From IMG/VR virus record IMGVR_UViG_3300025759_000119, positions 1 to 55,711 of that record: a stretch of 55,711 nt of DNA. The stretch is one strand, 5' to 3'. Origin of the DNA: a virus. The notes under the pieces are model-generated. The model had not been told where the DNA came from and did not search any database. It saw only the letters and a program-made list of their open reading frames with translations. The position numbers and the translations under genes are program-made. Below, one piece after another: positions 3,633 through 54,751 of the stretch. Position 1 is the first letter of the stretch; the number at the start of each line of letters is the position of its first letter.

Positions 3633-3634
3633 CG

Positions 3635-7609: not shown

Positions 7610-7611
7610 AA

Positions 7612-7794
7612 ATGGATAACACGACAATAACAAACGCACAGTATTACAATAACTCTGATGGTAACATTTCCAGCATCAAAGCCACCATTGACGGCACAGA
7701 GATGTTTATTCCCATTGACCAAACCAACCGCCACTACGCAGAAATCATGCGTCAGGTGGAAGCTGGCGAGTTGACCATAGCGGATGCTGACTGA
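7612..7794 (+). CDS. 60-aa fibre partner protein (copy B)
   Basis: 60 aa, paralogue of the protein at 3635: SIKATIDG and NRHYAEIMRQVEAGELTI are shared. It follows the copy-B fibre by 2 bp and overlaps the next ATG by one base. The duplication includes both the fibre and this partner, which supports a functional pair. Confidence 0.65.
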   Translation: MDNTTITNAQYYNNSDGNISSIKATIDGTEMFIPIDQTNRHYAEIMRQVEAGELTIADAD

Positions 7795-16365: not shown

Positions 16366-19300
16366 ATGACAAGATATAGATATGAAGGGCAGATATATGA
16401 TTTCGAGCCCGGTCTTACTAACGATGAAGTTAAAGAAAGAATCGCCAATCTTCCGCAGCAGTCTACTGCACCAGTAACTTCAGCTAGGTACGCTTCTGGT
16501 ATAGAAGAAGACGAGGGTTTTTTTCAAGAAGTCGGGGAAGGGGTAGTCTCCGGCTTGTCCCGCATCCCGCAAGGGATCTTAGAGCTTGGCACTATAGCTT
16601 TTGATGCTGCCGCCGACACCAACTACACGGAAGAAGTCACTAAGTTTTTTGATGAAACAAGAGAAGATTTAGGTATTGATCCTACTGGTTTGGCCGGAGG
16701 AATATCAGAAGGGCTTGCTCAGTTTCTTGTCCCGGGTCTTGGGGCTGCAAGTGCTGTCTCAAGGGTGTCATCAATAGGAAAAATGGCTCGTGGACTTCGC
16801 TCTGCTAAAACTGGGCGAAAAGCATCATCCGCTCGTCTAGCTGCTGCGGAGCGTAAGTATGGTAGTACAAGTCTTAGCACTAGCCAAAAAGTGAACTTGA
16901 CACTGCAGGAAGCAGGCGCTGCAACTGCTGCTGATTTTCTCGTATCTACAGACGGAACACAGTCTATAGGTGACTTTTTTGAACTTGGCGTTACTCAGAC
17001 AAATGAGAAAAAACTTGGGGAGTCAGGAAGAGAAGCCGCTCTTCGTAAATTAATTAACAAAACAAAAGTAGGCGCAGAGTCAGGTCTTTTGACTGTGGGT
17101 TTCCCAATTGCTCTTGGGGCCACTGTAAAAGGCGGGTCAGCCGTTGGCGCATTTAGGCCCATAGAAGCCATAAACGAAACAACCGGGTTGTCTCTTCCCG
17201 GGGCAAGTTTTGCATTAGCGCAAACTGTTACCGGCCCTACAAAAGCAGCCGTTGATTTAATAAAAGGTGCAATTATTCGCGGTGAAGAAAGAATGCTGGA
17301 CCCTCTTCAAGAGGTTGGTGCGTTCGCAGGTATGTTAAACAGAACTTTAGGTACTTTACGGTATCGCGGCTTCTTAGATGCAGAAGTTGCCGATCAGCAG
17401 TCTTTGGTTGGTGCAAAGGTTGAGGGGGAAGTAAAAAGAGCGGACGGTCTTCTTAAAAACATAGAAAAAAACATTGATGAATATCTTAAGCGCCCAGAGG
17501 TTCTTGAGCAAAGCAGCATCACAAAACAAAAAATGCTTAATAATTTTATGGATGTTCTTGAGACAGGGAATCGACCTGACGACCTGCCAGAAGAATTGTT
17601 TAAAGAATATATGAAAGCCAGAAAAGTTATTGATGGCCTGTCCGAAAGATTGCTAGCTACAGGTGCCGTGGCTCGTTTGCCTGAAGAATCAACCAGCAGG
17701 TTTATGGGCCGTGCAGAATTTATCCAGACTGTTAGAAACAACATTCAAACCGGGGGTTATCTGCGTCGCCGTTACCGTGCATTTGAAGATCCTGAAAACT
17801 ACTCAATACCTAGAGGTCTTGCAGACGAGCGGGAAATATTTAATATGCTCCGCACCGGAGGTGCGGAAGGCAGTGAAGGCGACCGTATATTTAAAGACAT
17901 CAAAGAACGTCTTAATATTACAAACTTTCGCGTTACCGAAGAACAAACGCTTGACACATTGACGGACAGGCAGCTTCGCGGTTACGTTGACGCTATCCTT
18001 AATGATGCAAGAAACACAGGACGTGGAAGAATTATGGGGATGAGTTTTCGCTCGTCTATGCGAAAATTAAATCCGCAACTTTTGAACAGGCGAAAAGTAG
18101 ATTTGTCTACAACGAGACGAATCCTTGGCGAAATTAGAGACCCGTTTGAAGCATATGTTGCTACGGTTTCTGATCTGTCAACATTTATAGCTACGGATGA
18201 TTTTTTTACAACATTCCGCAGATTTGTAGATGACGACATAAAAAACGCTAAAAACCGTGAAGGTAGATATAGCGAACTTCGTGCATCTAGAGCAGAAATA
18301 CAAAGTTTAATAAACGCTAGAAGAGAAAATCCGGCTGCTCAGTTAGGCCCGGCTCAAAGCAGATACATAGATACAGAAGAGTATATCAAAAACATTGAGC
18401 AACAAGTAGTTGCAAATGGTGGTGAGTTTACCGACGCATCAAAACAAAAAATCTTAGAAGATCTCAGAGATCAGGGATACTACATCCTTGGCAAAACGGG
18501 ACTTGATGGCAACATATATGACAAAGGGATTAGTGAAAGTGCCTTTGGAGCTATGCACGGGATAGCTATTCCTGAGCCTATGTGGCGGTCAATGTCAAAC
18601 AACATCTTAAATGACGACAACGATTTTACAAAATACTTCTTGCGTCCGGTTTATGGTAGTTTTTTAAAACTCAAGGGCATGACCCAGTATGCAAAGACTA
18701 TTCTTTCTCCCGTCACACAAGTTCGTAACGTAACATCCGCAGCTTTATTTGCTGCTGCTCAAGGCAACTTTGGGAACGGCGCCAATCTTGGGGAGTCCTT
18801 GTCTCTTGTCTTGGGCGATCTTTTTAATATGACCGATGAAAAAGCTCTTGAGTATATGGTTGAACTGCAGCAGCGCGGCGTTATCGGAAGCAGCGCACAG
18901 CTTCGAGAAATTCAAGATACTCTTCGTAAAGGTCTTAATCCACGAACCACTTCCGGAGCGCATATTCTAGATGAAGCTGCCGGGCGGCTTCCCTCTGACA
19001 TAGCCGGGCCTCTTGAAGTCGCTCGCAAAAAAGGTTGGGTGCGCCAAATGCTGGGTAAAGCAGAAGATGCGTATCGTGGCGGTGATGATGTTTGGAAAAT
19101 ATATAACTACGAGTTTGAACACGCTAAAATTAAACAAGCTTATCTAGACGATGTGCAGAATGCCACAAAAGGTTTAACAGATCCGGACGTAATTAAAAAT
19201 GCTAAAGAAGCGGTAGATTCTAGTTACTTAAAGTTTACTAATTCTTCTCCTAGTACATCGCTTGACACCGCATTAAAAGATCTTGCTGCCGACAGAGTTC

Positions 19301-20856
19301 GTAACCTCGTTCCCAATTATGAGCTTGTGCCAGACGCAATTAAAAATCTTCGTAGACTCCCAGTGGGTAACTTTATTGCTTTCCCTGCTGAGATTATACG
19401 CACAGGATTTAATACGCTTGACACAGCAATGCGTGAGTTGTCCAGTGACAGTAAAGCTATACGCCAGATAGGTATGCGGCGGTTGATGGGGGCTACAACA
19501 ACCTTTGCGATTGTCCCAACAGCCCTTCAGGGCATGGCTATGAAGCTGACAGAAACAAGTCAAGAAGAAATTGACGCGGCGAATCGTGTTGCAGCGCCAT
19601 TTCAACGCAACTCTATATTTATTCCTGTGGGCCGGAATGAAAAAGGTAACCTTGAAGTTATTGATTTCAGCCACACCAACCCATACGACATGTTAATCAA
19701 ACCATTCTACGCGGTAATGAACAGCCTTGACCGAGATGGCCGACTGTCCAACGACGGAGTGGAAGCAGGGACTCGTGCTGCATGGGAAGCTTTTTCTGAA
19801 TTTGCGTCACCTTTCTTTGAGCAGTCTATTGCCGCTGCTGTTATACAAGATGTCATGCCTAAGTGGGCAATGGGCAATGGTGGTGAAACAAAAACCGGCG
19901 CTATTGTGTACAAAGATGTTGAGTCACTAGGGAAAAAACTAGAGCGTAGTTTTTTCCATGTGGTAAATGGCCTAAGCCCCGGCATAAGTCCTTTCCGTAT
20001 ACCAACAGGAGCAGACTTGTCGGAGGTCGAAGCAGGGCGTTTTATTCGCGGAACTTTAGGTAATGAGCTTGGTCTTTCCACTAAAGAACCATCCACAGGA
20101 AGAGAATATGGAACAGCGGGTGAGATTATCCGTGCGCTGTCTGGGTTAAACACACAGGAGTTTGACCCAGAACGTATTCTTAGATTTAAGGCAAATGAAT
20201 TTAAATCGAATCGTTCTGAAGCAGCGACATTGTTTAATGATGTGGTTAACAGGGAAGTTTCTTCCCGCGAAGATTATATTAAGGGGTATGTTGAGGCTAA
20301 CGAAGCAAGGCTTCGTGCTTTCCGTGAAATGTCATCTTATGTAGATGATCTCGGAACTTTGGGTCTAACGAGAGCTAGAATAAGAAGACAACTTAAAAAA
20401 GAAAAGTTAGGCAACGCTGAAATAAACAGCATTATGCGTGGGCGTTACGATCCTTTCACGCCATCCAAAGATAAGATGGAAGAAGCTAGACGTAAACGTC
20501 ATGACATTCCGCGCAGCGAATTAAGAACTTTAGAAAGACAAATGCGCCGCTTAGACATAAGCCCGGATTTTCCTGAGCCGACTCCGGAAAGATTTGATTT
20601 TAGCTCGACTCCAACTGCGCCTAGGTCTAATATACTGTCCCCTGAGGATATGTTTTTATTTTCACCGCAGCCTGAACCACAAGCTGCTGCACCACAAGCT
20701 CCGGTCCCCGGTCCAACAACCAAGGTTCCCGGGCAGGCGGTCGGCACACCTGTGGGCTTTACTTATAAAGGTCAGCAAATACCTGCAGAACTTCTCGGTG
20801 GAAATCCAGAAGACATAATGAAAAATGTAGAAATATATCGAAGGAGCCAGCAGTGA
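16366..20856 (+). CDS. Giant internal virion protein, 1496 aa
   Basis: The largest gene in the window. N-terminal RYRYEGQIYDFEPGLTNDEV is the short YxGxxYxFxxGxxxxEV motif often found at the start of large ejection proteins. Residues ~40-300 contain amphipathic and hydrophobic segments (GIEEDEGFFQEVGEGVVSGL, GLAQFLVPGLGAASAV, GLLTVGFPIALGATV). Residues ~755-1070 carry LRPVYGSFLKLKGMTQYAKT, SPVTQVRNVTSA and LPVGNFIAFPAEIIRTGFN, motifs I associate with large phage polyvalent/internal proteins. I see no lysozyme or transglycosylase site. Last internal protein before endolysin, with which it overlaps by 4 bp. Confidence 0.65.
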   Translation: MTRYRYEGQIYDFEPGLTNDEVKERIANLPQQSTAPVTSARYASGIEEDEGFFQEVGEGVVSGLSRIPQGILELGTIAFDAAADTNYTEEVTKFFDETREDLGIDPTGLAGGISEGLAQFLVPGLGAASAVSRVSSIGKMARGLRSAKTGRKASSARLAAAERKYGSTSLSTSQKVNLTLQEAGAATAADFLVSTDGTQSIGDFFELGVTQTNEKKLGESGREAALRKLINKTKVGAESGLLTVGFPIALGATVKGGSAVGAFRPIEAINETTGLSLPGASFALAQTVTGPTKAAVDLIKGAIIRGEERMLDPLQEVGAFAGMLNRTLGTLRYRGFLDAEVADQQSLVGAKVEGEVKRADGLLKNIEKNIDEYLKRPEVLEQSSITKQKMLNNFMDVLETGNRPDDLPEELFKEYMKARKVIDGLSERLLATGAVARLPEESTSRFMGRAEFIQTVRNNIQTGGYLRRRYRAFEDPENYSIPRGLADEREIFNMLRTGGAEGSEGDRIFKDIKERLNITNFRVTEEQTLDTLTDRQLRGYVDAILNDARNTGRGRIMGMSFRSSMRKLNPQLLNRRKVDLSTTRRILGEIRDPFEAYVATVSDLSTFIATDDFFTTFRRFVDDDIKNAKNREGRYSELRASRAEIQSLINARRENPAAQLGPAQSRYIDTEEYIKNIEQQVVANGGEFTDASKQKILEDLRDQGYYILGKTGLDGNIYDKGISESAFGAMHGIAIPEPMWRSMSNNILNDDNDFTKYFLRPVYGSFLKLKGMTQYAKTILSPVTQVRNVTSAALFAAAQGNFGNGANLGESLSLVLGDLFNMTDEKALEYMVELQQRGVIGSSAQLREIQDTLRKGLNPRTTSGAHILDEAAGRLPSDIAGPLEVARKKGWVRQMLGKAEDAYRGGDDVWKIYNYEFEHAKIKQAYLDDVQNATKGLTDPDVIKNAKEAVDSSYLKFTNSSPSTSLDTALKDLAADRVRNLVPNYELVPDAIKNLRRLPVGNFIAFPAEIIRTGFNTLDTAMRELSSDSKAIRQIGMRRLMGATTTFAIVPTALQGMAMKLTETSQEEIDAANRVAAPFQRNSIFIPVGRNEKGNLEVIDFSHTNPYDMLIKPFYAVMNSLDRDGRLSNDGVEAGTRAAWEAFSEFASPFFEQSIAAAVIQDVMPKWAMGNGGETKTGAIVYKDVESLGKKLERSFFHVVNGLSPGISPFRIPTGADLSEVEAGRFIRGTLGNELGLSTKEPSTGREYGTAGEIIRALSGLNTQEFDPERILRFKANEFKSNRSEAATLFNDVVNREVSSREDYIKGYVEANEARLRAFREMSSYVDDLGTLGLTRARIRRQLKKEKLGNAEINSIMRGRYDPFTPSKDKMEEARRKRHDIPRSELRTLERQMRRLDISPDFPEPTPERFDFSSTPTAPRSNILSPEDMFLFSPQPEPQAAAPQAPVPGPTTKVPGQAVGTPVGFTYKGQQIPAELLGGNPEDIMKNVEIYRRSQQ

Positions 20857-39217: not shown

Positions 39218-39309
39218 ACTGATTGGCAACCAGCTTGGCATCGCGTTAGGGGGGACCCCCTTATTTTTGGGGTGTGGTGTTACTGATTGGCTGTATAATA
39301 CACTGATTG
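39218..39309 (+). promoter_or_regulatory. Late promoter/operator candidate
   Basis: ACTGATTG occurs at 39218-39225, 39282-39289 and 39302-39309; the last two are exactly 20 bp apart and flank TATAAT at 39294-39299. No good -35 box is present, as expected for an activator-dependent promoter. TerL starts at 39343. GTATAATA is also present after the capsid terminator at 54803. Confidence 0.5.
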
Positions 39310-39342
39310 ATAAATTCATTCGAATGTATTATCGTTTGGACC

Positions 39343-40818
39343 ATGAACCTAGATGCTCTGCCAAAAGAAGTGTTACAGGAAGTTTTGCTGCTGGAAGAAC
39401 AGCGCAAGCGCCTAGAGACACGCGATAAAGCCCAAGAACAGTTTATGCCGTATGTCCATCATGTATATGATGGCTTCATTGAAGGCCGGCATCATATTAT
39501 CATTGCAGAAAAGCTAGAAAAAATCGCGCGTGGTGAATTAAAACGCTTGATTGTAAACATGCCACCCCGGCATTCTAAATCAGAATTTGCTTCGTATCTT
39601 ATGCCTAGCTGGTTTTTGGGCCGGAATCCAAAGTTAAAAATTATTCAAGCTACCATGAATACGGAACTTGCTGTAAGATTTGGACGCAAGGTCCGAGATC
39701 TGATCGCCGACCCTATTTATGGGGAGATCTTTCCCAATACGGACCTAAAACAGGACAGCCAAGCAGCCGGTCGTTGGGAGACCAGCGCTGGCGGGGAATA
39801 TTTTGCGGCTGGGGTGGGCGCTGCAATGACTGGTCGTGGCGCGGATTTGTTAATTATTGACGATCCTCACTCGGAGCAGGACGCACTTTCCCCTAGTGCT
39901 TATGATAATGCGTGGGAGTGGTACACATCTGGCCCAAGACAGCGTCTGCAGCCGGGCGGTGCCATCATTATTGTCCAGACGCGGTGGTCTAAGAAAGACA
40001 TTACGGGCAGGTTACTGCAGGCTCAGGGCGTGGACACCATGACTGACCAATGGGAGGTAGTAGAATTCCCTGCGATTATGCCATCGGGGGAACCACTGTG
40101 GCCGGAATTCTGGCCCAAGGAAGAGTTACTTAAGGTAAAGGCGTCACTGTCTCCCGGAAAGTGGAATGCCCAGTGGCAACAAAATCCTACATCTGACGTT
40201 ACAGCATTAGTGAAACGTGAATGGTGGAACGTGTGGGAGCGAGAAGACACCCCTAAGCTAGAGTATGTGATTCAGTCTTACGATACGGCGTACAGCAAAA
40301 AAGAGACGGCTGACTACTCTGCTATTACTACATGGGGTGTGTTTCAGCCTCGTGAGGACGGGGATCAGCATCTGATCTTGCTTGATGCGAAGAAGGGTCG
40401 CTGGAATTTTCCTGAGTTAAAAGCGATTGCTTTAGAGGAAAATGAGTATTGGGAACCGGACATGATGTTAATTGAGGCGAAGGCTTCTGGTATGCCGCTA
40501 GCGGACGAGTTACGTCTGCAGAATTTGCCGGTTACTACCTTTGCTCCGGGCCGGCGCAAAGGCGGGGGTGGGTTGGACAAAACAACCCGTATGCATATGG
40601 TTGCCCCTATATTCGAATCTGGAAAAGTATGGTATCCTGAACGTAAATTCGCTGAAGAAGTAATAGAAGAAGTTGCCTCGTTTCCAAATGGAGATCATGA
40701 CGATTACTGCGACAGTATGACGATGGCTGTTATGCGGTTTCGGCAGGGCGGCTTCATTAGTTTGGACGGCGAAGAGCTTGAAGACTGGGGCCCACCTCGT
40801 AAAAGAGAATACTATTAA
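39343..40818 (+). CDS. terL: Terminase large subunit
   Basis: 491 aa from ATG (MNLDALPKE); an in-frame TTG 12 codons earlier is less likely. It is the ATP-driven DNA-packaging motor with a headful or cos nuclease. Walker A-like MPPRHSKSE (residues 73-81), Walker B LLIIDDPHSEQD (169-180), coupling motif IIVQTRW. The RNase H-like nuclease has Asp314 (SYDTAYS), Glu378 (LIEAKASG) and Asp453/454 with Asp457 (GDHDDYCDS). Length is usual. First gene of the rightward head operon; the next ATG overlaps its stop. Confidence 0.95.
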   Translation: MNLDALPKEVLQEVLLLEEQRKRLETRDKAQEQFMPYVHHVYDGFIEGRHHIIIAEKLEKIARGELKRLIVNMPPRHSKSEFASYLMPSWFLGRNPKLKIIQATMNTELAVRFGRKVRDLIADPIYGEIFPNTDLKQDSQAAGRWETSAGGEYFAAGVGAAMTGRGADLLIIDDPHSEQDALSPSAYDNAWEWYTSGPRQRLQPGGAIIIVQTRWSKKDITGRLLQAQGVDTMTDQWEVVEFPAIMPSGEPLWPEFWPKEELLKVKASLSPGKWNAQWQQNPTSDVTALVKREWWNVWEREDTPKLEYVIQSYDTAYSKKETADYSAITTWGVFQPREDGDQHLILLDAKKGRWNFPELKAIALEENEYWEPDMMLIEAKASGMPLADELRLQNLPVTTFAPGRRKGGGGLDKTTRMHMVAPIFESGKVWYPERKFAEEVIEEVASFPNGDHDDYCDSMTMAVMRFRQGGFISLDGEELEDWGPPRKREYY

Positions 40819-43800
40819 TGGCAAAGCGCTATATAGATAAAAGTATAGATGAGCAACAGGCGGAAAGAGCCGCTGGTTTTTCCAAGCGCATGCAAAATCT
40901 CACTGAGGCTGGATCAGGTATGGTGGACCGGCTATCCCAGATGGCTACTGGTCTTGCTAAGGAAGAGGTTTTTGGCATTCCCGGGTTACTGGGGGATTTA
41001 GCGAAGCCTGCTTCAGCCATTTTAAACCCCGTTCTTTATGCCACAAATCCTAAAGTCAGTGAAAATGTAAGTCAGTTTGCAAAAGATTTTGGTGCATCGG
41101 GCCTTGCAGCAAAAGCTGGTGTAGAGCTTTCTGACGAGTTCTTTGATGAACAGGGGGAACTTCGTCCAGAGATGGCTGGCAGGTTTCTGGCTCCCGGCGC
41201 GTTATATGCTAAGGTTGCAACCTTAGCGCCAAAAGTGGGCCGTGGACTTCAGGACCTTGTATCGGGGCTCAGGGATAATGATTTTTTTCCTCCGAACGGA
41301 CCGCAGTTGAACCCTGTGACGGTGGCTCCTGATCCACGGACCACGTTTCCTATGGATAAGGCTCCTGTCCCAGAAACTTCTGTAATGTTAAATGAGGCTC
41401 GTGGTACAGGGTCCACGGACGCTAGACTTGTTGACTTGATTTCTAAGGGCGATATCAACACTCCGGAAGATATAAAGAGTTTTTTCCCTGACTTCCGGAT
41501 TTTAAATCCTGAAGATTTTCCAAGTCAGGACAAGTTTGAGTATGCAGAAAAGTCCGCTCAGTACAAACTGATAAACCAGTACAGGGCCAGCCCTAAAGAA
41601 AAAAAGATTAAAAAGACATTAGCCCCTAATCCGGAAACCTACATGATTAGTGAAGAGGGTGCATCGATGATTGGCGATGCACATTCACCACTTCTTGATG
41701 TTTTGAAAAAAATGGATATTCCTCCCGGGGGTATAGCCGGGTCGTCTGTGATAGAGCAGGTAGGTAAGCAGTTAAGTAATCGCAGAAACATTGAACTTCA
41801 GCAGTATGGTTTAGTGGATTATTTTTCAAAGAATGCGGATAAAAAGTTTTCGCGGGAAGAACTAATCGAAACTTTTGACACTGTGGCGCCTAGTATTGAT
41901 GTTAAGACTGTCATGGAAACAGACCTGCAGACTGCTGGTGTGCCAAGTCTTGCTTATCAAACGCCCGACGGCGTTACTGACGCTGCAGCCCCTGACGGGC
42001 ACGGCGTTATTGTGTTTGGCAACCGAAAAGGTGCTCAGGTTGGTGGTGTAAAGCTAAAAGGTGTGCCGGGTCACGACTATTTCAAAGATGACATTAGTGG
42101 TTTCTTTGGTCAGGTGCGTTTTAGCATCGTACCGGATCCGTACAACCCGGATTCCGGTCGGAGATACATGAGCCTAAACGAGTTTCAGGCTGATCTTATT
42201 AGAGGTTTAACCGATCTGGCGGAGGGGCGTGACACATCATATGCCCGGAGAATGATTCAGGATCAGCGTGTACCGTTGACCCCGGGCGAAAAACTGGCTC
42301 TCAAGGAGATAGATACAAGTCTAGAAAAATCTAACTATTCCCAAATGGAAAAAACAGCAACGCAACTAGACGAGGAAGCACGGCAAATTCAAGGAAAAGG
42401 GGAATATCGTTTAGGTCTTCGTGCAGACGGCGCACCATCTCGTCAAAGAGCGGAGTCACGCAATAGATTTGATATCGCTCTTCGTGCGCTTAACGAAGGG
42501 CTTGCTGATCGCAAAACTCCGGAGCAGGTAGAAGAGTTTTTATTAAGACTTTTAGGGGATGACAACACCACAAGTAACACAGTTCTTAGAGATAGCCTCA
42601 CCCAGATGTGGCGACGATCAAACGCAACTGCAGTATCGCGCTTACAGGCGATGTCTGACGCGGGCATAGGCTCGGCCATGCCCGGCATGTTGCGTAAAAT
42701 GATTAAGGAAAAAGACACCTTGGCTGAATTCCAGAAGGAAGCGCTTTTTGACGAACTTCAGCAAATTGAAGGCGTTTTTGATATGAATAGAGTGTTAGAA
42801 GATGCTACCCGTTATTCGGAAGACCTTACCAAAGCATTTTTAAAGGGTGTTGAGGGGGACAACTCAAGTATAGTTATTGGTCTAAGTGGTAAAAAGGTTC
42901 AAAATGCTCGTTCGCAACTGTCCCGCGACGAAGTCTTGGCTGCGCTACCGGACGGCTGGTATGAGAAAACAGTAAACGATCTTGTTGAAAAGTACAAAGC
43001 CACAGACAAGCAAATAGGTTCAGGTAAATTTCCATATAAAAACATGCGTGGATATTCGCGCGTTAACAACATAGGCACTAATGATACTCGCAGGACTGCC
43101 GAGGCTGTGGTAAATGATGTTCTTGACTACATGGGTAACGCACCGGGGTCTTCGCTCACTGGCGCTAGAACGCTAGGCACCAACTTTAAAAACTGGCTGG
43201 ACAAAAAGAACTACTTTAATGCTGCAGAAAAGCGTCTTAGTGAAATTGACGGACTACGTCCGTCTGATATCGACATACAGGAGGCAAAGCAGGATTTTTA
43301 TACTGACGTTCTTCAGAAAAGCGGCATAGAAAATGTTGCTGACGTTCTTCAGCTTCGAGACAAAACCATCCGCTCTGGTGGTACATCAGGGTATATACAA
43401 GACGTTCCGTTTAAAACACAAAACGCATTTAATCAATTTGCTCTTCGTGCAGCAGTGCGGGAAGCTGAAAAACTTGGTTTAGACGGAGTTGTGGTGCCTG
43501 ATTGGGCGGACATGTCTGTTATGCCGGGAAGATTAGATAGCACTGAGTTTACAATCGGTACAAACACTGACGTAACCATTCCCATTTACACAGATGTAGC
43601 GACCAAAATAGATGAGGCAGTAAAAAAACAAACGGATTTTCACACACAAGAGGGGTCATATTATATACCTGACGAAAACTATCTTCCTGTAAAAGACATA
43701 AAAGAAATAATAGATAGCATTGAAGACCCAAAACAAAAAGAAGCAATAGTTGAATTAATGCCTTCAAACACATCCTCAGATCAGTTTGCAAAAACCACAT

Positions 43801-44207
43801 TAAAATCATACGCCCGTGGTGAGGAATTAGGTGAGTATTACCCCGACATTGCGGAGGATTTAGTTGACGTAGGTATAATGAAAAACACAATTCAAGGTCT
43901 TCTTGACACGGGTAGAGAGCAAACCAAAAAATACAGAGCTTTCAAAACAAACTACGGTGATGTTCTGGACGCAGGATTACAACGATTAGTTTCGGAAGGT
44001 GTTACTGTAGAAAACAAACCGTTTGGTTTATATAACCCAAGAGAAAATAAAATAGAGCCGTTTGGTGACATTAAACGCCCTGCCCGCGTAATTGAGCTAA
44101 CAGGAAAAACAAAAGACATTGCCAAAAAAGTGCCTAGCGCTTACAATAAGGGCGGTCACGTTGATGTCCGTGGCGGCATTGGTGCTATGGCTAGGAGGGT
44201 AATGTAA
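40818..44207 (+). CDS. Polyvalent-like giant protein, 1129 aa
   Basis: Between TerL and portal, where most phages have nothing this large. N-terminal ~90 residues have amphipathic helices. Residues ~355-510 hold GVPSLAYQTPDGVT-DAAAPDGHGVI, GVKLKGVPGH and EFQADLI. Near residue 870 IQDVPFKTQNAFNQFALRAA-VREAEKLGLDGVVV and later KKYRAFKTNYGDVLDAGLQR with VIELTGKTKDI match the order of the C-terminal region of large polyvalent phage/plasmid proteins (PFxxxWxxxALR, GxDxVxW, YxxxLxxxL, IxITxxxR). It ends KGGHVDVRGGIGAMA, part of a C-terminal tag family. Probably packaged and injected; activity unknown. Confidence 0.6.
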   Translation: MAKRYIDKSIDEQQAERAAGFSKRMQNLTEAGSGMVDRLSQMATGLAKEEVFGIPGLLGDLAKPASAILNPVLYATNPKVSENVSQFAKDFGASGLAAKAGVELSDEFFDEQGELRPEMAGRFLAPGALYAKVATLAPKVGRGLQDLVSGLRDNDFFPPNGPQLNPVTVAPDPRTTFPMDKAPVPETSVMLNEARGTGSTDARLVDLISKGDINTPEDIKSFFPDFRILNPEDFPSQDKFEYAEKSAQYKLINQYRASPKEKKIKKTLAPNPETYMISEEGASMIGDAHSPLLDVLKKMDIPPGGIAGSSVIEQVGKQLSNRRNIELQQYGLVDYFSKNADKKFSREELIETFDTVAPSIDVKTVMETDLQTAGVPSLAYQTPDGVTDAAAPDGHGVIVFGNRKGAQVGGVKLKGVPGHDYFKDDISGFFGQVRFSIVPDPYNPDSGRRYMSLNEFQADLIRGLTDLAEGRDTSYARRMIQDQRVPLTPGEKLALKEIDTSLEKSNYSQMEKTATQLDEEARQIQGKGEYRLGLRADGAPSRQRAESRNRFDIALRALNEGLADRKTPEQVEEFLLRLLGDDNTTSNTVLRDSLTQMWRRSNATAVSRLQAMSDAGIGSAMPGMLRKMIKEKDTLAEFQKEALFDELQQIEGVFDMNRVLEDATRYSEDLTKAFLKGVEGDNSSIVIGLSGKKVQNARSQLSRDEVLAALPDGWYEKTVNDLVEKYKATDKQIGSGKFPYKNMRGYSRVNNIGTNDTRRTAEAVVNDVLDYMGNAPGSSLTGARTLGTNFKNWLDKKNYFNAAEKRLSEIDGLRPSDIDIQEAKQDFYTDVLQKSGIENVADVLQLRDKTIRSGGTSGYIQDVPFKTQNAFNQFALRAAVREAEKLGLDGVVVPDWADMSVMPGRLDSTEFTIGTNTDVTIPIYTDVATKIDEAVKKQTDFHTQEGSYYIPDENYLPVKDIKEIIDSIEDPKQKEAIVELMPSNTSSDQFAKTTLKSYARGEELGEYYPDIAEDLVDVGIMKNTIQGLLDTGREQTKKYRAFKTNYGDVLDAGLQRLVSEGVTVENKPFGLYNPRENKIEPFGDIKRPARVIELTGKTKDIAKKVPSAYNKGGHVDVRGGIGAMARRVM

Positions 44208-44404
44208 TGTCTGACAAAGACAAAGTTCGCATTGACGGACGTACAATGAAACAAATAAGGCAAATAGCGCAAGAAGATGTGACCAAGCTTACGGATAAGC
44301 AGTGGGAAGCATGGAGCAAATCTGCTAACAGCAAAGCAGCGGGCGGCATGGTTAAGGGCTTTAGCCCTATTGCCCGTCCACAAAGATTTAAGGGAGTATT
44401 CTAA
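44207..44404 (+). CDS. Small tagged protein
   Basis: 65 aa, starting on the stop of the giant protein and ending on TAATG. Basic start (DKDKVRIDGRTMKQIRQIAQ), a helix with LTDKQWEAWSKSAN, then the tag-like end AAGGMVKGFSPIARPQRFKGVF. It is the first of three tagged small genes in a row before the portal. Function unknown. Confidence 0.65.
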   Translation: MSDKDKVRIDGRTMKQIRQIAQEDVTKLTDKQWEAWSKSANSKAAGGMVKGFSPIARPQRFKGVF

Positions 44405-44697
44405 TGGCGCCTCGTTCACCACTAAAAAAGAAAAACAAAAAAGAAGGTTCTGATAACTACAGCAAGAAGCCTACGCCGGCACCTAAGATTAGCCCAGCAA
44501 TTGGCAAAAAACTCACAGATGGTAAAAACACTATTACTAATATGCCAGACCACAAAGAGATACAGCGAACGCACAGACGTAAGCGTGGGCAGGATGAAGG
44601 CATTGAGCGAGCGAGTTCAGGCAAATATTATATGAGTAAAAAATGCGGCGGCGCCGTACATAAAGCTCGTGGCGGAACATTTAAAGGAACATTCTAA
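44404..44697 (+). CDS. Small basic tagged protein
   Basis: 97 aa, very Lys-rich (SPLKKKNKKEG, THRRKRGQDEG). Ends CGGAVHKARGGTFKGTF; the last 14 codons are nearly identical in DNA to the end of the next gene (42 bp, one mismatch). The next ATG overlaps the stop. Basic composition suggests contact with DNA or the portal/terminase complex. Confidence 0.65.
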   Translation: MAPRSPLKKKNKKEGSDNYSKKPTPAPKISPAIGKKLTDGKNTITNMPDHKEIQRTHRRKRGQDEGIERASSGKYYMSKKCGGAVHKARGGTFKGTF

Positions 44698-44703
44698 TGG
44701 CAC
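44662..44703 (+). repeat. Tag-encoding repeat, copy 1
   Basis: 42 bp (AAAGCTCGTGGCGGAACATT...) matching 44931-44972 with one mismatch, covering the stop-start junction. Encodes KARGGTFKGTF. Confidence 0.8.
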
Positions 44704-44966
44704 CTAAAGCTCCTAAAACACCGAAGAAGAAAAAAAACAAGAACATAAAAAATACATCCGCTGCTGATGTTGTAGCAATGGTAGCGCCGCATCTTCAGGA
44801 TATAATAAATTATGGGGCACACGGGACTGCAATACTTGGAGCCGGAGCTTTAGGTTATGTTCCGTACAAGCTTAGAAAAATAGAGGAAGAGTCCAAGAGT
44901 AAGGGTAAAAAACAAGGCGGGGCTGTACTAAAAGCTCGTGGCGGAACATTTAAAGGAACATTTTAA
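44697..44966 (+). CDS. Small tagged protein with hydrophobic segment
   Basis: 89 aa. Basic lead (PKTPKKKKNKNIKN), then a hydrophobic Gly-rich stretch GTAILGAGALGYVPYKL that could insert in a membrane, a charged linker and the end GGAVLKARGGTFKGTF. Partial duplicate of the preceding gene at the 3' end only. Stop overlaps the portal ATG. Confidence 0.65.
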   Translation: MAPKAPKTPKKKKNKNIKNTSAADVVAMVAPHLQDIINYGAHGTAILGAGALGYVPYKLRKIEEESKSKGKKQGGAVLKARGGTFKGTF

Positions 44967-44972
44967 TGGCAC
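44931..44972 (+). repeat. Tag-encoding repeat, copy 2
   Basis: Second copy of the 42-bp tag-encoding repeat, at the junction with the portal gene. Confidence 0.8.
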
Positions 44973-47362
44973 TACCCCCACAAATGGTTGACATGGCAAT
45001 GGGCCCGGGCGGCCCATCTGACTTAATGCCTGAAGAAATGCAGGTTGAACTTCCGGGTTTTGAGGACGAGCTACCACCGGGCATTGAGATTGCAGGTGAA
45101 GAAGAGATGGTCGAGGTTCAGACTGAGGAGTATGACCACAATGCCAATCTTGCTGAGGTCTTAGATGATTCCGTTTTGCAGGAAATTTCGTCTGATCTAC
45201 GGGCTAAAATTAAAGAAGACCAAGATTCCCGCGATGAGTGGGAAGAAGCTATTTCAAAAGGTCTGGGGCTTCTTGGTATTAACTATGAAGAGCGGACCGC
45301 GCCTTTCTTGGGGGCGTCTGGGGTGCATCACCCACTATTGTCTGAAGCAGTAACGCAGTTTCAAGCACAGTCGTATAAAGAAATGCTACCTTCTGGCGGC
45401 CCTGTTAAGACACAAATTCTTGGCACACCAACCAGAGAGACGGAAGATCAGGCGCAGCGTGTTGAAGATTTTATGAACTATCAGATTACTGAGGTAATGG
45501 AAGAGTTCGATCCAGACACTGATCAGATGCTTTACTATCTGCCACTGACTGGTTCTACATTTAAGAAAGTATACTTTGACCCCACAAAACAACGCGCTGT
45601 GTCAAAGTTTGTGCCTGCAGAAGATTTGATTGTACCCTACACTGCGTCTGACTTACGCACCGCAGAACGGGTAACTCATGTTTTCCGCATGACTGAAAAC
45701 GAAATTAGAAAACTGCAGTTTGCAGGGATTTACAAAGACGTAAATATTTCACCAGTTGAAGAGAGCGAAGATGAAGGAAAAATTCATAACCGTGCTAACG
45801 AGCTTACGGGAATACGTCCTAACTATGGGGACGATGTCTATACATTATATGAAGTCCACGTTGATCTCGACCTTGAGGGGTTTGAAGATACTGACATGCA
45901 GGGCGATCCCACGGGCATTCGGTTACCTTATATTGTTACCATTGATGAAGGTTCTGGAGAAGTTCTTAGCCTTGTTAGAAGCTATCGTGAAGCGGATCCC
46001 TTAAGGCGTCGCAGACAATATTTCACACACTATAAGTTTTTGCCGGGTTTTGGGTTCTACGGCTTTGGTCTTCTGCACACAATCGGTGGGTTGTCTCGTG
46101 CGGCGACCTCGATTTTGCGTCAGTTAATTGATGCGGGAACTTTGTCGAACCTGCCGGCTGGATTTAAAGCTAGGGGCGTTCGTATTCGTAATGACGATGA
46201 GCCGCTGTCCCCCGGCGAGTTCCGTGACATTGACGCTCCCGGCGGCGATCTTAAAAACTCTATTATCCCGCTGCCTTACAAAGAGCCGTCAGCTACACTT
46301 GCCCAGCTTCTTGGTGTAATTGTAGATTCTGGTCGTCGTTTTGCACAGGTGGCAGACTCAAAGGTAGCCGATGTTAACTCACAGGCTCCTGTTGGGACTA
46401 CGGTTGCATTAATTGAGCAGGGTTCAAAGGTAATCTCTAGCATTCACAAGCGTCTGCACTACGCACAGAAGCAAGAGTTTAGAATGCTGGCGGAGGTTTT
46501 TGCCAGTAACCCGATGCCTTATCCTTACTTTGTTGGGCAGAACATTCCCCCAGAGATTATGCAGCAGGACTTTGATGGGCGGATTGACATCTTACCAGTG
46601 TCTGACCCGAACATTTTCTCAATGTCTCAGCGTTTGTCTTTGGCGCAGACTCAGCTTCAGTTGGCTCAGGCAGCGCCGCAGCTTCACAATCAGTATGAAG
46701 CCTATCGCCGGATGTATGATGCGTTGGATGTAAAGAACATTGATGCAATTCTGCCAGCACCGCAGCCGCCACAGCCCATGGATCCTGCAAAGGAGAACTC
46801 TGCTGCATTGAAAGGGTCGCCGTCACAGGCATTCCCACAGCAAGATCATAGGGCGCACATTCGTGTACACGCATCTATGATTCAGTCCCCGGCTATTCAA
46901 GCTAACCCACAGGCGTTTTTGATTTTGCAGTCTCATGTTCAGGATCATGTTTCTCTGTTTGCTCGGGACATTGTGCAGGAAGTGTTTAAAAACGCTATGC
47001 AGCAGGCACAAATGGCCGGCGAACCAATCCCACAGATTGATCCAAACGTAGTTGAGGCTATGGTTGCACAGCAAACGGCTGAAACACTGGAGCAGCTAGC
47101 GCCGCTCTTAATGCCGGCACAGCAGCCTGATCCGCTTGTAGAAATCCGCAAGCAGGAGCTAGAGATCGATCAACTGGAAGTTCAGCGCAAGATGCAGAAC
47201 GATACAATGGACTTCCAAATTGATCAGGCTAAGTTGCAACAGGCAGCTAACCTAGCCATGCAGCGGATGCAAACACAACAGGGTATCGCGGATGACCGGA
47301 ATGATGTGAATATCTATCGCATCAACACACAGGCCGGGCTAGCTAGGAACCGTGGACAGTGA
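44966..47362 (+). CDS. Portal protein
   Basis: 798 aa dodecameric head-tail connector. After an acidic N-terminus (VQTEEYDHNANLAEVLDD), the characteristic portal sequence of marine podovirus-like phages follows: GLLGINYEERTAPFLGASG, TQFQAQSYKEMLPSGGPVKT, LTGSTFKKVYFDP, RAVSKFVPAEDLIVPY, KFLPGFGFYGFGLLHTIGGL, LRQLIDAGTLSNLPAGFK and QAPVGTTVALIEQGSKV. The C-terminal ~100 residues are Gln-rich coiled coil (QKMQNDTMDFQI-type), likely the barrel. The size is in the usual 700-800 range. Confidence 0.85.
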   Translation: MALPPQMVDMAMGPGGPSDLMPEEMQVELPGFEDELPPGIEIAGEEEMVEVQTEEYDHNANLAEVLDDSVLQEISSDLRAKIKEDQDSRDEWEEAISKGLGLLGINYEERTAPFLGASGVHHPLLSEAVTQFQAQSYKEMLPSGGPVKTQILGTPTRETEDQAQRVEDFMNYQITEVMEEFDPDTDQMLYYLPLTGSTFKKVYFDPTKQRAVSKFVPAEDLIVPYTASDLRTAERVTHVFRMTENEIRKLQFAGIYKDVNISPVEESEDEGKIHNRANELTGIRPNYGDDVYTLYEVHVDLDLEGFEDTDMQGDPTGIRLPYIVTIDEGSGEVLSLVRSYREADPLRRRRQYFTHYKFLPGFGFYGFGLLHTIGGLSRAATSILRQLIDAGTLSNLPAGFKARGVRIRNDDEPLSPGEFRDIDAPGGDLKNSIIPLPYKEPSATLAQLLGVIVDSGRRFAQVADSKVADVNSQAPVGTTVALIEQGSKVISSIHKRLHYAQKQEFRMLAEVFASNPMPYPYFVGQNIPPEIMQQDFDGRIDILPVSDPNIFSMSQRLSLAQTQLQLAQAAPQLHNQYEAYRRMYDALDVKNIDAILPAPQPPQPMDPAKENSAALKGSPSQAFPQQDHRAHIRVHASMIQSPAIQANPQAFLILQSHVQDHVSLFARDIVQEVFKNAMQQAQMAGEPIPQIDPNVVEAMVAQQTAETLEQLAPLLMPAQQPDPLVEIRKQELEIDQLEVQRKMQNDTMDFQIDQAKLQQAANLAMQRMQTQQGIADDRNDVNIYRINTQAGLARNRGQ

Positions 47363-47420
47363 TCATGTGGGACATGCACAATCGCACGACTAAAGAGCAG
47401 GCTGAAAGGAATCGTAAAAG

Positions 47421-47816
47421 ATGCTCCAAGCACTAATAGGTCCGGCTACCGACTTGATCGGTAAGTTTGTTGAAGACAAAGACCAGAAGAACAAGCTGGC
47501 GCATGAGATTGCCACTATGGCGGAGCGTCATGCACAGGAGCTTGCCAAGGGTCAGTTGGCTATCAATGCTGAAGAAGCCAAGTCACGGAACTTGTTCGTG
47601 GCGGGTTGGCGCCCGAGTGTTGGCTGGTGCTGTAGCTTGGCCTTGTTCGCTCACTTTTTGGTCTTCCCTACTATGGATGTAGTAACTGCCTACATGGGCG
47701 TTGAGCCAGTAGCTTATCCTCAGTTTGATATGGACAGCTTGATGACTGTCTTACTGGGCATGCTTGGGCTTGGGGGGATGCGTAGCTTCGAGAAGGCCAA
47801 GGGTTTAACAAAGTAA
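47421..47816 (+). CDS. Holin-like protein, 3TM superfamily
   Basis: 131 aa with AAGGAA upstream. N-terminal amphipathic helix (HEIATMAERHAQELAKGQLA), then FVAGWRPSVGWCCSLALFAHFLVFPTM, the AGWRPxxGW plus hydrophobic helix hallmark of the 3TM holin family, and a second membrane helix (SLMTVLLGMLGLGGM). It would make the membrane lesion that releases the endolysin encoded at 20853. It overlaps the next start by one base. Confidence 0.8.
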   Translation: MLQALIGPATDLIGKFVEDKDQKNKLAHEIATMAERHAQELAKGQLAINAEEAKSRNLFVAGWRPSVGWCCSLALFAHFLVFPTMDVVTAYMGVEPVAYPQFDMDSLMTVLLGMLGLGGMRSFEKAKGLTK

Positions 47817-47926
47817 TGGCTAAAAAAGTAGACAGCACCCCCATCCGTCGCAAGCGCATTCGGCGTCCGGGACAGCATAAAAAGAATATGAACAAACGCA
47901 ACAAAGTCAAGACTTTCTTTGGGTAG
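47816..47926 (+). CDS. 36-aa strongly basic protein
   Basis: Starts on the holin stop (TAATG) and ends 2 bp before the next ATG. About 15 of 36 residues are Lys or Arg (IRRKRIRRPG, then NKRNKVKTFFG). The position inside a fully packed lysis cassette supports expression. Function unknown. Confidence 0.6.
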   Translation: MAKKVDSTPIRRKRIRRPGQHKKNMNKRNKVKTFFG

Positions 47927-47928
47927 TT

Positions 47929-48132
47929 ATGGTGAGCGTAGAGACTTTTCTTAAATGGAAGATTCTGCCACGCTTTATGATGTTGGCTAGCACCATAATG
48001 TCATGGCGTTGTGCTGAGTGGTTCATGGCCTTGGACGTTCCGACTGCTGCTCAGTCGGCATTCGTGTCTGTGGTCATGGGTGTTATGACTGGTGTTTTTG
48101 GGATTTGGATGGGTCATGAGCACAAAGGTTAA
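47929..48132 (+). CDS. Small two-helix membrane protein, possible second holin
   Basis: 67 aa. Two predicted membrane helices: FMMLASTIMSWRCAEWFMAL and SAFVSVVMGVMTGVFGIWMG, with a short basic lead and tail (HEHKG). Located between a holin and a DUF1289 protein; could be a second holin, antiholin or pinholin. Overlaps the next gene by 17 bp. Confidence 0.6.
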   Translation: MVSVETFLKWKILPRFMMLASTIMSWRCAEWFMALDVPTAAQSAFVSVVMGVMTGVFGIWMGHEHKG

Positions 48133-48244
48133 AAGCCCGTGCGTGGGTATTTGTGTGTTAGACAAAGAACGTGTAAGATGTATTGGCTGTGGTCGTACCA
48201 TAGACGAGATAATTAGTTATGGCAAAACTAGGGTAGAAGACTGA
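48116..48244 (+). CDS. DUF1289 small Fe-S-type protein
   Basis: 42 aa, ATG overlapping the previous gene by 17 bp and TGATG overlap with the next. SPCVGICVLDKERVRCIGCGRTIDEI is an exact example of the DUF1289 pattern (SPCxxxCxxD...CxGCxRTxxEI); Cys9, Cys13, Cys22 and Cys25 are the conserved four. Cellular DUF1289 proteins are small predicted iron-sulphur/zinc proteins of proteobacteria; the phage role is unknown. Confidence 0.8.
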   Translation: MSTKVKSPCVGICVLDKERVRCIGCGRTIDEIISYGKTRVED

Positions 48245-49083
48245 TGTATGCTCCAATGAAAATGGGATTTCCTACGGGCATGGCTGGGGGTGGTATCACT
48301 CAGTTCTTGCAGCCGTTGCAGGAATATTTATCCCAGCAAGTTGTGCAGCAGCAGGTTCAGCCCTTTATAACTGAGGTTTCTGATGAGGCGCAGGAAAGAT
48401 TTAATCTTGGCGGCACCGGCAGCAACGACATATTTAGTAACGACATATTTGATAATAATATGTTTCAGGGTAATAGCGGTGGCATAGGTACGTTACCATC
48501 AAACGACCTACTTCCGGCTATTAAAGATGCTCAAGCGTTGTATGGTGGAAATGAACCTATGCCGGGTATTGCACCCGATCCGAGGCCACTAATGAACGGT
48601 TTCCCATCGCCGAATGAACCTATGCAGCCGGCAGTCCCAGATATCGATCAGGGTTTTTTTGACTCAGATGAGTATCTTAATTTTATGAGTAAGCCTCAAA
48701 TAGGTACACAAGATATTTATATGAGTCGCTATTTTGGTCAGATGGGTTCTGGTAGCTTGGGCGGTATGCAAGAAAAAGCATATGAAGACTATCTACGGCG
48801 CACGGGGCAGACCGATAAAATTATGGATACCAATCCTTTTGCTCCTACCGTGGGTATGCTCTCTACGCAACCTACGCAGCTTCCGGGGCCTAGACTTCCA
48901 ACTTTTACAGGTACAGGAAATGACGGCTTTGGAAGCGCTTCACAGGGGCCGTTAGATTTTTATAACCCTTCCGTTGGGCCAATGTATGGGCCAGAAGGAA
49001 CTTACTCTTTAACTGGTGGTCCACGACCTGTCTCGCAGGATCCGTATCAACGGACCCTATTTTCTGGAGCGGTGAATCAATAA
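48244..49083 (+). CDS. Pro/Gly-rich putative structural protein
   Basis: 279 aa. N-terminal YAPMKMGFPTGMAGGGITQF, then a helical QQVVQQQVQPFITEVSDEAQ, and a long Pro/Gly/Asn-rich half with repeated NEPMPGIAP/NEPMQPAVP and SNDIFSNDIFDNNMF phrases. No catalytic motif. Neighbours suggest a virion or morphogenesis role. Stop and next start share TAATG. Confidence 0.55.
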   Translation: MYAPMKMGFPTGMAGGGITQFLQPLQEYLSQQVVQQQVQPFITEVSDEAQERFNLGGTGSNDIFSNDIFDNNMFQGNSGGIGTLPSNDLLPAIKDAQALYGGNEPMPGIAPDPRPLMNGFPSPNEPMQPAVPDIDQGFFDSDEYLNFMSKPQIGTQDIYMSRYFGQMGSGSLGGMQEKAYEDYLRRTGQTDKIMDTNPFAPTVGMLSTQPTQLPGPRLPTFTGTGNDGFGSASQGPLDFYNPSVGPMYGPEGTYSLTGGPRPVSQDPYQRTLFSGAVNQ

Positions 49084-49526
49084 TGGCGAAGGTAAGATTA
49101 AATCAGTTTGCGGAAGACCTTGGTATTAACCGTTCCTCTGCACAGAAACTTATGAAAAAGGCTCGAGGCCGCAAGGATGGCGGGTCAAATGTAATTAAAA
49201 AATATTCCCCGGGGCTTCAAGATCGTATGAAACGGTTTGAGGATGCCGAGCGTATTTTCAGAGAAGACACAAAGATTGGAACAAAAATGGAAAAATCATC
49301 TTCAAAACCAAAGTCCAAGCGTAAGGCTTTTGATGAGTATTACGAAAAGCACGGCGAGGTTCATCCGAAAGACCCTCGGACAAAGCGTGATCATCCTATG
49401 AACCGTGAAGGTCGCCCGCTTGTCACAGAGACCGAAGACATTGTCGAAGCCAAGGCTGGCAAGTATATGGCTTGCGGCGGCTATGGTAAAGCAATTCAAG
49501 GCACGAAGTTCACCGGAGTTAAGTAA
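49083..49526 (+). CDS. Basic protein with N-terminal HTH and C-terminal tag
   Basis: 147 aa, mostly basic. VRLNQFAEDLGINRSSAQKL is a helix-turn-helix-like start; residues 40-100 are charged and helical; the C-terminus AGKYMACGGYGKAIQGTKFTGVK belongs to the GG...FxG tag group near the portal. May bind DNA or RNA during assembly. Overlaps both neighbours by one base. Confidence 0.6.
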   Translation: MAKVRLNQFAEDLGINRSSAQKLMKKARGRKDGGSNVIKKYSPGLQDRMKRFEDAERIFREDTKIGTKMEKSSSKPKSKRKAFDEYYEKHGEVHPKDPRTKRDHPMNREGRPLVTETEDIVEAKAGKYMACGGYGKAIQGTKFTGVK

Positions 49527-51845: not shown

Positions 51846-52730
51846 ATGCAAGAAGAACTACCCGAAAAAGAAGAACTAGAAATTATAGCCGAGGACGAAG
51901 AAGGTGGTGAGGTTGAAGAGCAAAAGGAAGAGCTTAAAGCTGAAGACCAAGCAGAGTCTAAGGACGATGATGATGAATTAGAGAATTATTCCGAGTCTGT
52001 TCAGCGCCGTATTCGTAAGCTTACAAGCAAGTATCGTGAAGAAGAGCGGCAGAGACAGGCGGCTATTGAATACGCTGAAGCGGTAAAAAGACAAAATGAT
52101 GAGCTACAGCATCGTCTAACAAAATTAGACGAGTCTTATGTTGGTGAGTTTGGGACGCGGCTAGAGTCTCAGGTGATAGCAGCAAAAGAAGCTTACAGAA
52201 AAGCTCATGACGAGGGTGATGTTGACGCCATGTTTGAGGCGCAAGAAAACATCAGTCGTCTTGCAATGGAGCGGTCTCGCTACGATCAAATCAAACAACG
52301 TAATGAGGCAGCACCCGCCCGTCAACAAGCTCCTCAAGAAGTTCCAGCACAAGCTCCACAAAGAGCGGCGCCGGCTAGGCCAGATCCAAAAGCTGAGGCT
52401 TGGGCGGAAAAGAACAACTGGTTTGGGCAAGATCAGACCATGACATATGCTGCTTTTGGCATACATCGTCAATTAATTGAGGATGAGGGGTTTGACCCAA
52501 CGTCCGATGAGTACTATACTGAGTTAGATCGCAGAGTCCGTGTTGAGTTTCCACACAAGTTTCAGAACTCAAGACGGGATGCGGGACCCAGAGTCGCTTC
52601 TGCTGAGTCCACGGCTTCTAAGTCGTCATCTAAGGGGCGCAGAACAGTTAAATTGACTCCTTCGCAAATATCAATTGCGAAACGTCTGAATGTTCCGCTT
52701 GAAGAATATGCAAAGTATGTGAAGGATTAA
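51846..52730 (+). CDS. Scaffolding protein
   Basis: 294 aa. Acidic start (PEKEELEIIAEDEEGGEVEE), long charged helical region with EERQRQAAIEYAEAVKRQND, a Gln/Pro/Ala linker (PARQQAPQEVPAQAP), and a basic C-terminus (KSSSKGRRTVKLTPSQISIA-KRLNVPLEEYAKYV) typical of the helix by which scaffolds bind the capsid protein. Position one decoration-like gene and one stabilising gene before the major capsid protein agrees. Confidence 0.8.
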   Translation: MQEELPEKEELEIIAEDEEGGEVEEQKEELKAEDQAESKDDDDELENYSESVQRRIRKLTSKYREEERQRQAAIEYAEAVKRQNDELQHRLTKLDESYVGEFGTRLESQVIAAKEAYRKAHDEGDVDAMFEAQENISRLAMERSRYDQIKQRNEAAPARQQAPQEVPAQAPQRAAPARPDPKAEAWAEKNNWFGQDQTMTYAAFGIHRQLIEDEGFDPTSDEYYTELDRRVRVEFPHKFQNSRRDAGPRVASAESTASKSSSKGRRTVKLTPSQISIAKRLNVPLEEYAKYVKD

Positions 52731-53839: not shown

Positions 53840-54751
53840 ATGGCTATTTCTCGCGCACAACTCGCCAAAGAACTAGAGCCCGGTCTAAATGCTCTCTTTG
53901 GTATGGAATACAACCGGTACGAGAACCAGCATTCCGAAATCTTCGACACAGAGTCATCTGACCGTGCGTTCGAAGAAGAGGTAATGTTGTCTGGATTCGG
54001 GGCTGCACCGACTAAAGGTGAAGGCACAGGTGTATCATATGATGATGCACAAGAAGCCTACACTGCTCGGTACAACCACGAGACAGTTGCTATGGCCTTC
54101 TCAATCACTGAGGAAGCTGTAGAAGACAATCTCTATGATCGTCTAGCATCTCGTTACACTCGTGCCCTCGCTCGTTCGATGGCACACACAAAGCAGGTTA
54201 AAGCTGCGGCTATCCTGAACAACGCATTCTCTGCCGGCGCATTTGCTGGTGGTGACGGTGTTGCTCTGTGTGACGCATCACACCCGCTTACATCTGGCGG
54301 CACTTTTGCCAACGAGCCGGGCGTCGCTGCTGATTTGAACGAAACTTCTTTGGAAGACGCTCTTATCAACATCGCAGGTTTCGTGGATGAGCGCGGCCTG
54401 ATTGTTGCCCTTCGTGGCATGAAGCTGATCATTCCTCGTCAGCTTCAGTTTGTTGCCGAGCGTTTGCTCGTATCAAACCTTCGGGTTGGTACAGCCGACA
54501 ACGACATCAACGCCATCAAGTCTTCAGGAATGCTGCCAGAAGGTTATGTAGTCAACGACTTCCTAACCGACACTGACGCCTTCTTCATCAAGACTGATGC
54601 GCCAAACGGCTTCAAGCACTTTGAGCGCATGGCTTTGTCAACTGCAATGGATCCAGACTTCGACACTGGCAACATGCGGTTTAAAGCTCGTGAGCGTTAC
54701 AGCTTCGGCTTCTCAGACCCACGCACTGTGTTCGGTTCACCGGGCGCATAA
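53840..54751 (+). CDS. Major capsid protein, HK97-like fold
   Basis: 303 aa. Readable family features: FEEEVMLSGFG, a YTARYNHETVAMAFSITEEA stretch, ASRYTRALARSMAHTKQVKAA-AILNNAF with a CDASHPL motif shortly after, and LIIPRQLQFVAERLLVS (P-domain-like) followed by FLTDTDAFFIKT and the end ERYSFGFSDPRTVFGSPGA. The CDxxHPLxxG signature is typical of this Mu-type/HK97-like capsid family. Strong terminator follows 19 bp after the stop. Confidence 0.88.
   Translation: MAISRAQLAKELEPGLNALFGMEYNRYENQHSEIFDTESSDRAFEEEVMLSGFGAAPTKGEGTGVSYDDAQEAYTARYNHETVAMAFSITEEAVEDNLYDRLASRYTRALARSMAHTKQVKAAAILNNAFSAGAFAGGDGVALCDASHPLTSGGTFANEPGVAADLNETSLEDALINIAGFVDERGLIVALRGMKLIIPRQLQFVAERLLVSNLRVGTADNDINAIKSSGMLPEGYVVNDFLTDTDAFFIKTDAPNGFKHFERMALSTAMDPDFDTGNMRFKARERYSFGFSDPRTVFGSPGA

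Follow-up and report, generated by a model that had tools for sequence, protein, structure and literature searches.

The head module and its C-terminal tags

The DNA analyzed here (hereafter the window) is one virus contig from IMG/VR, IMGVR_UViG_3300025759_000119, 55,711 bases long, in which several head-region genes encode otherwise unrelated proteins that end in short conserved peptides, referred to below as tags A to D. The head module occupies the right part of the window, where the terminase gene is followed by a gene for a 1129-amino-acid (aa) protein, three small genes and the portal gene, and then by a holin, more small genes, a GroES-like gene and the genes for the scaffold-like and major capsid proteins. 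Start-on-stop overlaps (TAATG) are found in many of these genes, and all features given with coordinates in this section lie on the plus strand. The terminase large subunit (39307..40818; phrog_38, E = 7.6e-106) forms the upstream limit of the tagged zone, while the portal protein (44966..47362; phrog_1216, E = 1.7e-52) serves as our lineage marker and is a candidate docking partner.

Between these two genes, open reading frames (ORFs) encode the 1129-aa protein with tag D (40818..44207), a 65-aa basic protein with tag A (44207..44404), a 97-aa lysine-rich protein with tag B (44404..44697) and an 89-aa protein with another tag B (44697..44966). The 65-aa protein has homologues with the same tag, and the stop of its gene overlaps the next start codon. 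The 97-aa protein matched neither a PHROG nor a Pfam family, and phage records held no convincing relative of it. Downstream of the portal lies a gene for a 147-aa protein with tag C (49083..49526). A 72-sequence alignment of its family reveals a conserved N-terminal segment of ~45 aa, a variable linker and the tag; the N-terminal segment is helix-turn-helix/IF2_N-like by sub-threshold Pfam and PDB matches only. In several C-tagged proteins (L057, L063, L064, L069, L174), a dockerin/EF-hand-like segment (DLTGDNKVTQADILKGRG and similar) immediately precedes the tag. The other candidate docking partners are a putative scaffold-like protein (51846..52730; phrog_28737, function unassigned), which we name by its position just upstream of the capsid gene and its C-terminus only, and the major capsid protein (53840..54751; phrog_371, major head protein).

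The peptides themselves are tag A (GGMVKGFSPIARPQRFKGVF, 44342..44401), the two copies of tag B (GGAVHKARGGTFKGTF, 44647..44694, and GGAVLKARGGTFKGTF, 44916..44963), tag C (CGGYGKAIQGTKFTGVK, 49473..49523) and tag D (GGHVDVRGGIGAMARRVM, 44151..44204). A preliminary description of this DNA had reported related C-termini on all five proteins. This holds for the four whose genes stop at 44404, 44697, 44966 and 49526, which follow the A/B/C consensus ...[R/Q]G-x-x-F-x-G-[V/T]-[F/Y/K], whereas tag D of the protein ending at 44207 is distinct and separately conserved. Two of the genes had also been said to share 42 bp of DNA: the near-identity is real, but amounts to 41/42 positions, made up of a 32-bp exact run, one mismatch and 9 matching bases, and in the B copies these last 9 bases extend across TAATG into the next gene.

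Conservation of the tag peptide on changing bodies

Relatives were gathered by portal search (80 loci) and by matching degenerate versions of the B, C and A tag DNA, each of which gives a lower bound on the matches. Because loci found through tag patterns are biased by construction, the chance statistic was drawn from the portal-selected loci alone, after collapsing C-termini with 60% identity in their final 40 residues, which left 505 non-redundant sequences. The combination of F or Y at position -5 with G at -3 occurs in 59 of these 505 C-termini, compared with 2.7 expected from internal positions (p = 3e-58). Profile-profile scores were 13.7 for A-B, 14.7 for B-C and 11.5 for A-C, with a maximum of 5.7 in 54 comparisons with untagged C-terminus families. 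The similarity seen by eye in the preliminary description thus persists under statistical alignment, and chance resemblance of the tags is rejected by both the count and the profile scores.

G at -3 is invariant in at least 82 A, 171 B and 122 C distinct sequences, and F at -5 is replaced once only, by Tyr, although the class patterns themselves demand these positions and the search pattern further enforces fixation within B; the B tags in portal-derived loci look like those found by pattern. Tag A is near-fixed across 20 residues in at least 82 distinct DNA sequences while its synonymous codons vary, and tag B is near-fixed over RGG[T]FKGx[F/Y] (at least 171 distinct sequences). The most conserved part is the distal F-x-G-x-[FYK] end rather than the GG-V part. 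Gly, Pro, Ala and Gln codons are free to vary at conserved residues, and for tags carried by different body families, the ratio of nonsynonymous to synonymous differences (pN/pS) is 0.08 for A, 0.22 for B and 0.43 for C, with pS at 0.7-0.8. Residues are fixed while synonymous sites vary, so it is the tag peptide on which selection acts.

The bodies behave in the opposite way. Once stripped of their tags, at least 394 proteins fell into 72 body groups by blastp, with the reservation that body-group and ortholog counts come from simple ORF calling and blastp, where small or truncated members may inflate or merge groups. Tags also move between homologous bodies: an A-tagged and a B-tagged protein (L038 and L369) are 90% identical across 62 body residues, which indicates tag exchange, and the body type of the window's 44697-44966 protein bears tag A, not B, in three other loci (L334, L346, L320), whose bodies are 72-76% identical to the B-tagged homologue L169. 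An 83-aa protein of DSL-LC04 ends in KKKTKIY, and a related body in the tagged lineage bears tag A. Most tagged bodies are basic, with median isoelectric points (pI) of 9.5, 10.2 and 10.0 for A, B and C and values above 9 in 70, 92 and 97%, respectively; for neighboring small ORFs, a control set that includes some spurious ORFs, the median is 6.4 and 26% exceed 9. The sole clear known domain on tagged proteins is LysM (2/89 representatives). LysM-type domains occur on B-tagged proteins of L105, L145, L147 and L160, the L105 gene lying directly 3' of terminase; by their domain content, these proteins are possible candidates for packaged peptidoglycan-binding proteins.

One portal lineage with several tag dialects

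Terminase and GroES bracket the A-, B- and C-tagged genes of the window and of six near-complete relatives, with one exception found ~3 kb past the capsid gene. The phrog_1216 portal was present in 41 of 48 tag-bearing records tested, the other seven being fragments of 4-19 kb. Conversely, no tag was found nearby for 18 of 247 distinct portals; these 18 come from truncated contigs, from tagless members or variant endings missed by the patterns (L056, L067, L360), or from basal relatives. Dialects co-occur in defined combinations: A with B1, C and D1/D2; B2 with C and D3/D4; a further type, E, with C; and C with D5. Tags A and E are never present twice on a contig (0/165 and 0/65), although their bodies differ, while B reaches up to four copies.

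The collections are metagenomic, and a host is identified only for the cultured phage HTVC023P, namely Pelagibacter. HTVC023P bears tags C and E, its tagged proteins being gp30 (RGGGMARMKPTKMY), gp32 (RGVGAAIRGHKFIGVK) and gp51 (RGGGAAVRGMGFKGVF), the last encoded among later genes. Within its lineage (L386-L465, e.g., L400:91-573), the gene just before the portal ends in ARGGGMARxKPTKLY or ARGGGMAIQGMKPTKLY, and the one that follows the portal often carries tag C at its end. Judged by these residues, the HTVC023P-lineage ending is a sister dialect, with ARGGGMAIQGMKPTKLY bridging toward tag C.

A tblastn search of the tag peptides against 50,697 phage records returned a weak HTVC023P match and the query's own source record only, and B-tag DNA had a single match in 84,980 cellular genomes, away from any ORF end. 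No known family or structure in Pfam, NCBIfam, PHROGs or the PDB covers the tag, and a literature search with motif strings and phrases found no relevant paper and no published tag description. Its sequence pattern resembles that of an address label, not described before, which would direct proteins into the viral particle.

The large D-tagged neighbor follows a similar logic with a peptide of its own. Homologues of the 1129-aa protein range from about 600 to 1900 aa and can often be aligned in short stretches only, while their C-terminal tags are kept. Other, variable bodies carry tag D in the forms GGMVRSGIGAMAREVM, GGPVDLRPKKLVHSGIGAMARQVM and GGKVDLRSGIGDIFKVYS, and the endings of the D family include GG-x-V-D-x-R-S-G-I-G..., KKGGI.SKFRK, AKGGYIDLRRKAS and NEGGLVVNIFA (window; L090, L096, L128, L130, L139, L340). 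Pfam detected no domain in the window's protein or in eight D-tagged relatives. Two D-tagged proteins match phrog_6958 (virion structural protein) and one weakly matches phrog_342 (internal virion protein with endolysin domain), which indirectly supports the suggestion that this part of the genome encodes virion-associated proteins. When placed on the portal tree, the five D types need at least 14 changes, mostly repeated D1/D2 switches; because they switch so often, no docking partner can be read from co-evolution of D tag and portal.

A putative docking signal for the virus head

Taken together, the tag is conserved at the protein level, is carried by many unrelated bodies, is swapped between homologous ones and is restricted to the head module of one portal lineage. 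The idea that it acts as a docking or targeting signal, put forward in the preliminary description, is well supported by these sequence patterns and by its position at the extreme C-terminus; incorporation into the procapsid through portal or scaffold, which that description also proposed, is the best reading we can infer. We consider the best explanation, with somewhat better than even confidence, to be a C-terminal docking peptide by which diverse basic cargo would be brought into the procapsid. The tag would be the constant part, joined by a flexible Gly-Gly/Lys-rich segment to bodies that would be the variable cargo, mostly basic and probably partly disordered. It would bind one conserved head-morphogenesis component of the portal lineage, the candidates being the portal, the scaffold or the inner capsid face, so that accessory proteins made late would become part of the procapsid and remain beside the packaged DNA, some of them probably being ejected into the host. 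Binding to a common partner, the structural nature of this partner, virion incorporation and ejection are all predictions. A, B, C and E would be lineage dialects of one motif, while the D-tagged neighbor would use a second, analogous C-terminal tag. Terminase, portal, GroES and capsid protein, along with a scaffold-like protein and two small proteins, are among the head genes that the tag-bearing genomes examined share, and because of this shared presence a phage-encoded docking partner is probably one of them. More tentatively, and short of an even chance in our estimate, the tag may be a modular "address label" in a portal lineage of abundant marine short-tailed phages, where a dialect-specific C-terminal peptide lets any small basic protein load at a dedicated head partner. 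The head would then take no more than one client of type A or E, typically a single C-type client and a varying number of B-type ones, and would work as an interchangeable carrier that delivers anti-host or DNA-protecting proteins.

Several observations weigh against loading into the procapsid. No recognizable tag was found in basal relatives of the same portal family, with ~45% or less portal identity (CRP-901/902, MinM2, Caulobacter and Alcaligenes phages), and no dedicated receptor gene was identified. The spurious ORFs in the control set for charge also count here. The window's canonical ejection-type proteins, a DNA ejection protein (13422-14588; phrog_4287) and a virion structural protein (16366-20856; phrog_22602), carry no tag; the tag is therefore not required of every internal protein, and would mark an additional, exchangeable protein set beyond the canonical ones.

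Among other partners for the tag, a non-structural one, such as a host protein or a phage chaperone (e.g., GroEL/GroES), would make the tagged proteins assembly factors that never enter the virion. We regard this as unlikely, though it has points in its favor: the module includes a GroES-like gene in the window as well as in most of the relatives examined, conservation of the tag is high enough to require a specific groove, and tags A, B and D begin with GG-x-V, a loose likeness to the Gly-Gly-hydrophobic mobile loop of GroES (the window's GroES contains EGGVYVPD). However, basal relatives encode GroES yet lack tags, conservation peaks at the distal F-x-G-x-[FYK] rather than at GG-V, and the basic charge and LysM bodies suit cargo better. 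Somewhat less probable is a nucleic-acid-binding tail of the RGG type, keeping basic proteins on DNA with no specific protein partner. RGG/RG with aromatic residues on basic bodies would fit such a tail, but tag A has no RGG at all, and residues outside RGG, together with F-5 and G-3, are invariant or nearly so in at least ~370 sequences; general DNA binding needs neither such invariance nor restriction to a single portal lineage. Docking to the cell envelope, peptidoglycan or a tail component for lysis or entry would accommodate the LysM domains on 2 of 89 representatives and the holin gene in the same module. It appears improbable given that most bodies are basic, with no envelope-related domain or hydrophobic segment, and that tagged genes cluster with head genes rather than tail genes. 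An outer-membrane beta-signal reading of the terminal F/Y was rejected because Gly occupies -3 and Lys is the final residue of many C tags.

Two further explanations would make the peptide incidental. The tag could be a patch of DNA that recent gene conversion has propagated, or a site where recombination exchanges cargo, as might be suggested by the 41/42 bp identity of the window's two B copies and the fast turnover of cargo genes. Yet synonymous sites are near saturated across genomes and pN/pS falls to 0.08, so that the peptide and not the DNA is conserved; a DNA-level repeat or recent conversion as the cause is disfavored by these values and seems to us very improbable, while recombination may help the tag to spread. 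Even harder to credit is a by-product of the next gene's overlapping Shine-Dalgarno site and start codon (TTTAAAGGA...TAATG). Most tagged genes do have a stop/start overlap, and GGA is over-represented among the Gly codons at -3 because it doubles as the next gene's Shine-Dalgarno site. Of 480 untagged genes with the same overlap, however, 17% have G at -3 and only 4% combine it with F/Y at -5; moreover, the tag spans 16-20 residues, and many tagged genes, notably those of C, have no overlapping start. As the sole cause this overlap is refuted, and it explains codon choice at -4/-3 only.

Loading into the head, our preferred reading, has precedents. One fixed peptide on many changing bodies beside shell genes is, by analogy, the pattern of a loading signal, and the nearest working analogue is that of the T4 internal proteins. 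In T4, the capsid targeting sequence (CTS) takes internal proteins into the scaffolding core, and these proteins are injected; the CTS is N-terminal and is removed by the gp21 prohead protease. T4 internal proteins are diverse and basic, and the CTS is their only common part (PMC3012670). The likeness to the CTS of IPI, IPII, IPIII and Alt lies in a short conserved peptide on diverse basic proteins, here 72 body groups with median pI of 9.5-10.2. Unlike the CTS, all tags described here end at the C-terminal residue, their sequence is unrelated, and their loading is a prediction. No separate prohead-protease gene was recognized among the window head genes scanned, and the capsid protein has weak matches to protease-fusion profiles that are confined to the profiles' distal part. 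The earlier suggestion of a protease signal finds no support among the head genes scanned, the tag being terminal and not a cleavage junction. That of a membrane signal fares no better: bodies are basic and polar, and the tag offers no hydrophobic anchor.

Encapsulin cargo-loading peptides are short, usually C-terminal, carried by unrelated cargo encoded beside the shell gene, and sufficient for loading an HK97-fold shell (PMC7355545). The tags are likewise short C-terminal peptides on unrelated proteins encoded near a shell gene, in the terminase-capsid zone, but here each virus would have several different cargo proteins and a DNA-filled capsid, and comparison by eye with cargo-loading motifs gave no match. 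The D-tagged protein, which is large, variable in its mid-region and encoded beside terminase and portal, is reminiscent of polyvalent proteins (Iyer et al. 2017) and of the N4 virion RNA polymerase, where a terminal region is required for encapsidation (PMC5512222). The D-tagged proteins scanned differ from polyvalent proteins in showing no known domain of the effector, peptidase or ParB type, and the proteins with tags A, B or C are small. Kuravirus SU10 is also a short-tailed phage with multiple internal proteins (the ejection proteins gp20-24) and a distantly related portal (weak PF23899 match) (PMC9509320), but gp20-24 have no tag, nor do the window's own ejection-type proteins.

If this interpretation is right, the tag would provide a sequence rule predicting which small "hypothetical" proteins of these marine phages enter the particle, as well as a natural C-terminal handle to load foreign proteins into a phage head. 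More than 70 body groups of unassigned function would become candidate packaged or injected proteins, comparable to the T4 internal proteins that block host defenses, and the tag can be tested in a cultured phage, HTVC023P.

Elsewhere in the window, near-duplicate gene pairs lie ~4 kb apart in a tail-fibre-like region (2529-3817 and 6512-7794), with repeats of 49-145 nt at 73-94% identity, and the coding region at 8094-8316 contains 43-nt repeats at 60- and 120-base spacing.

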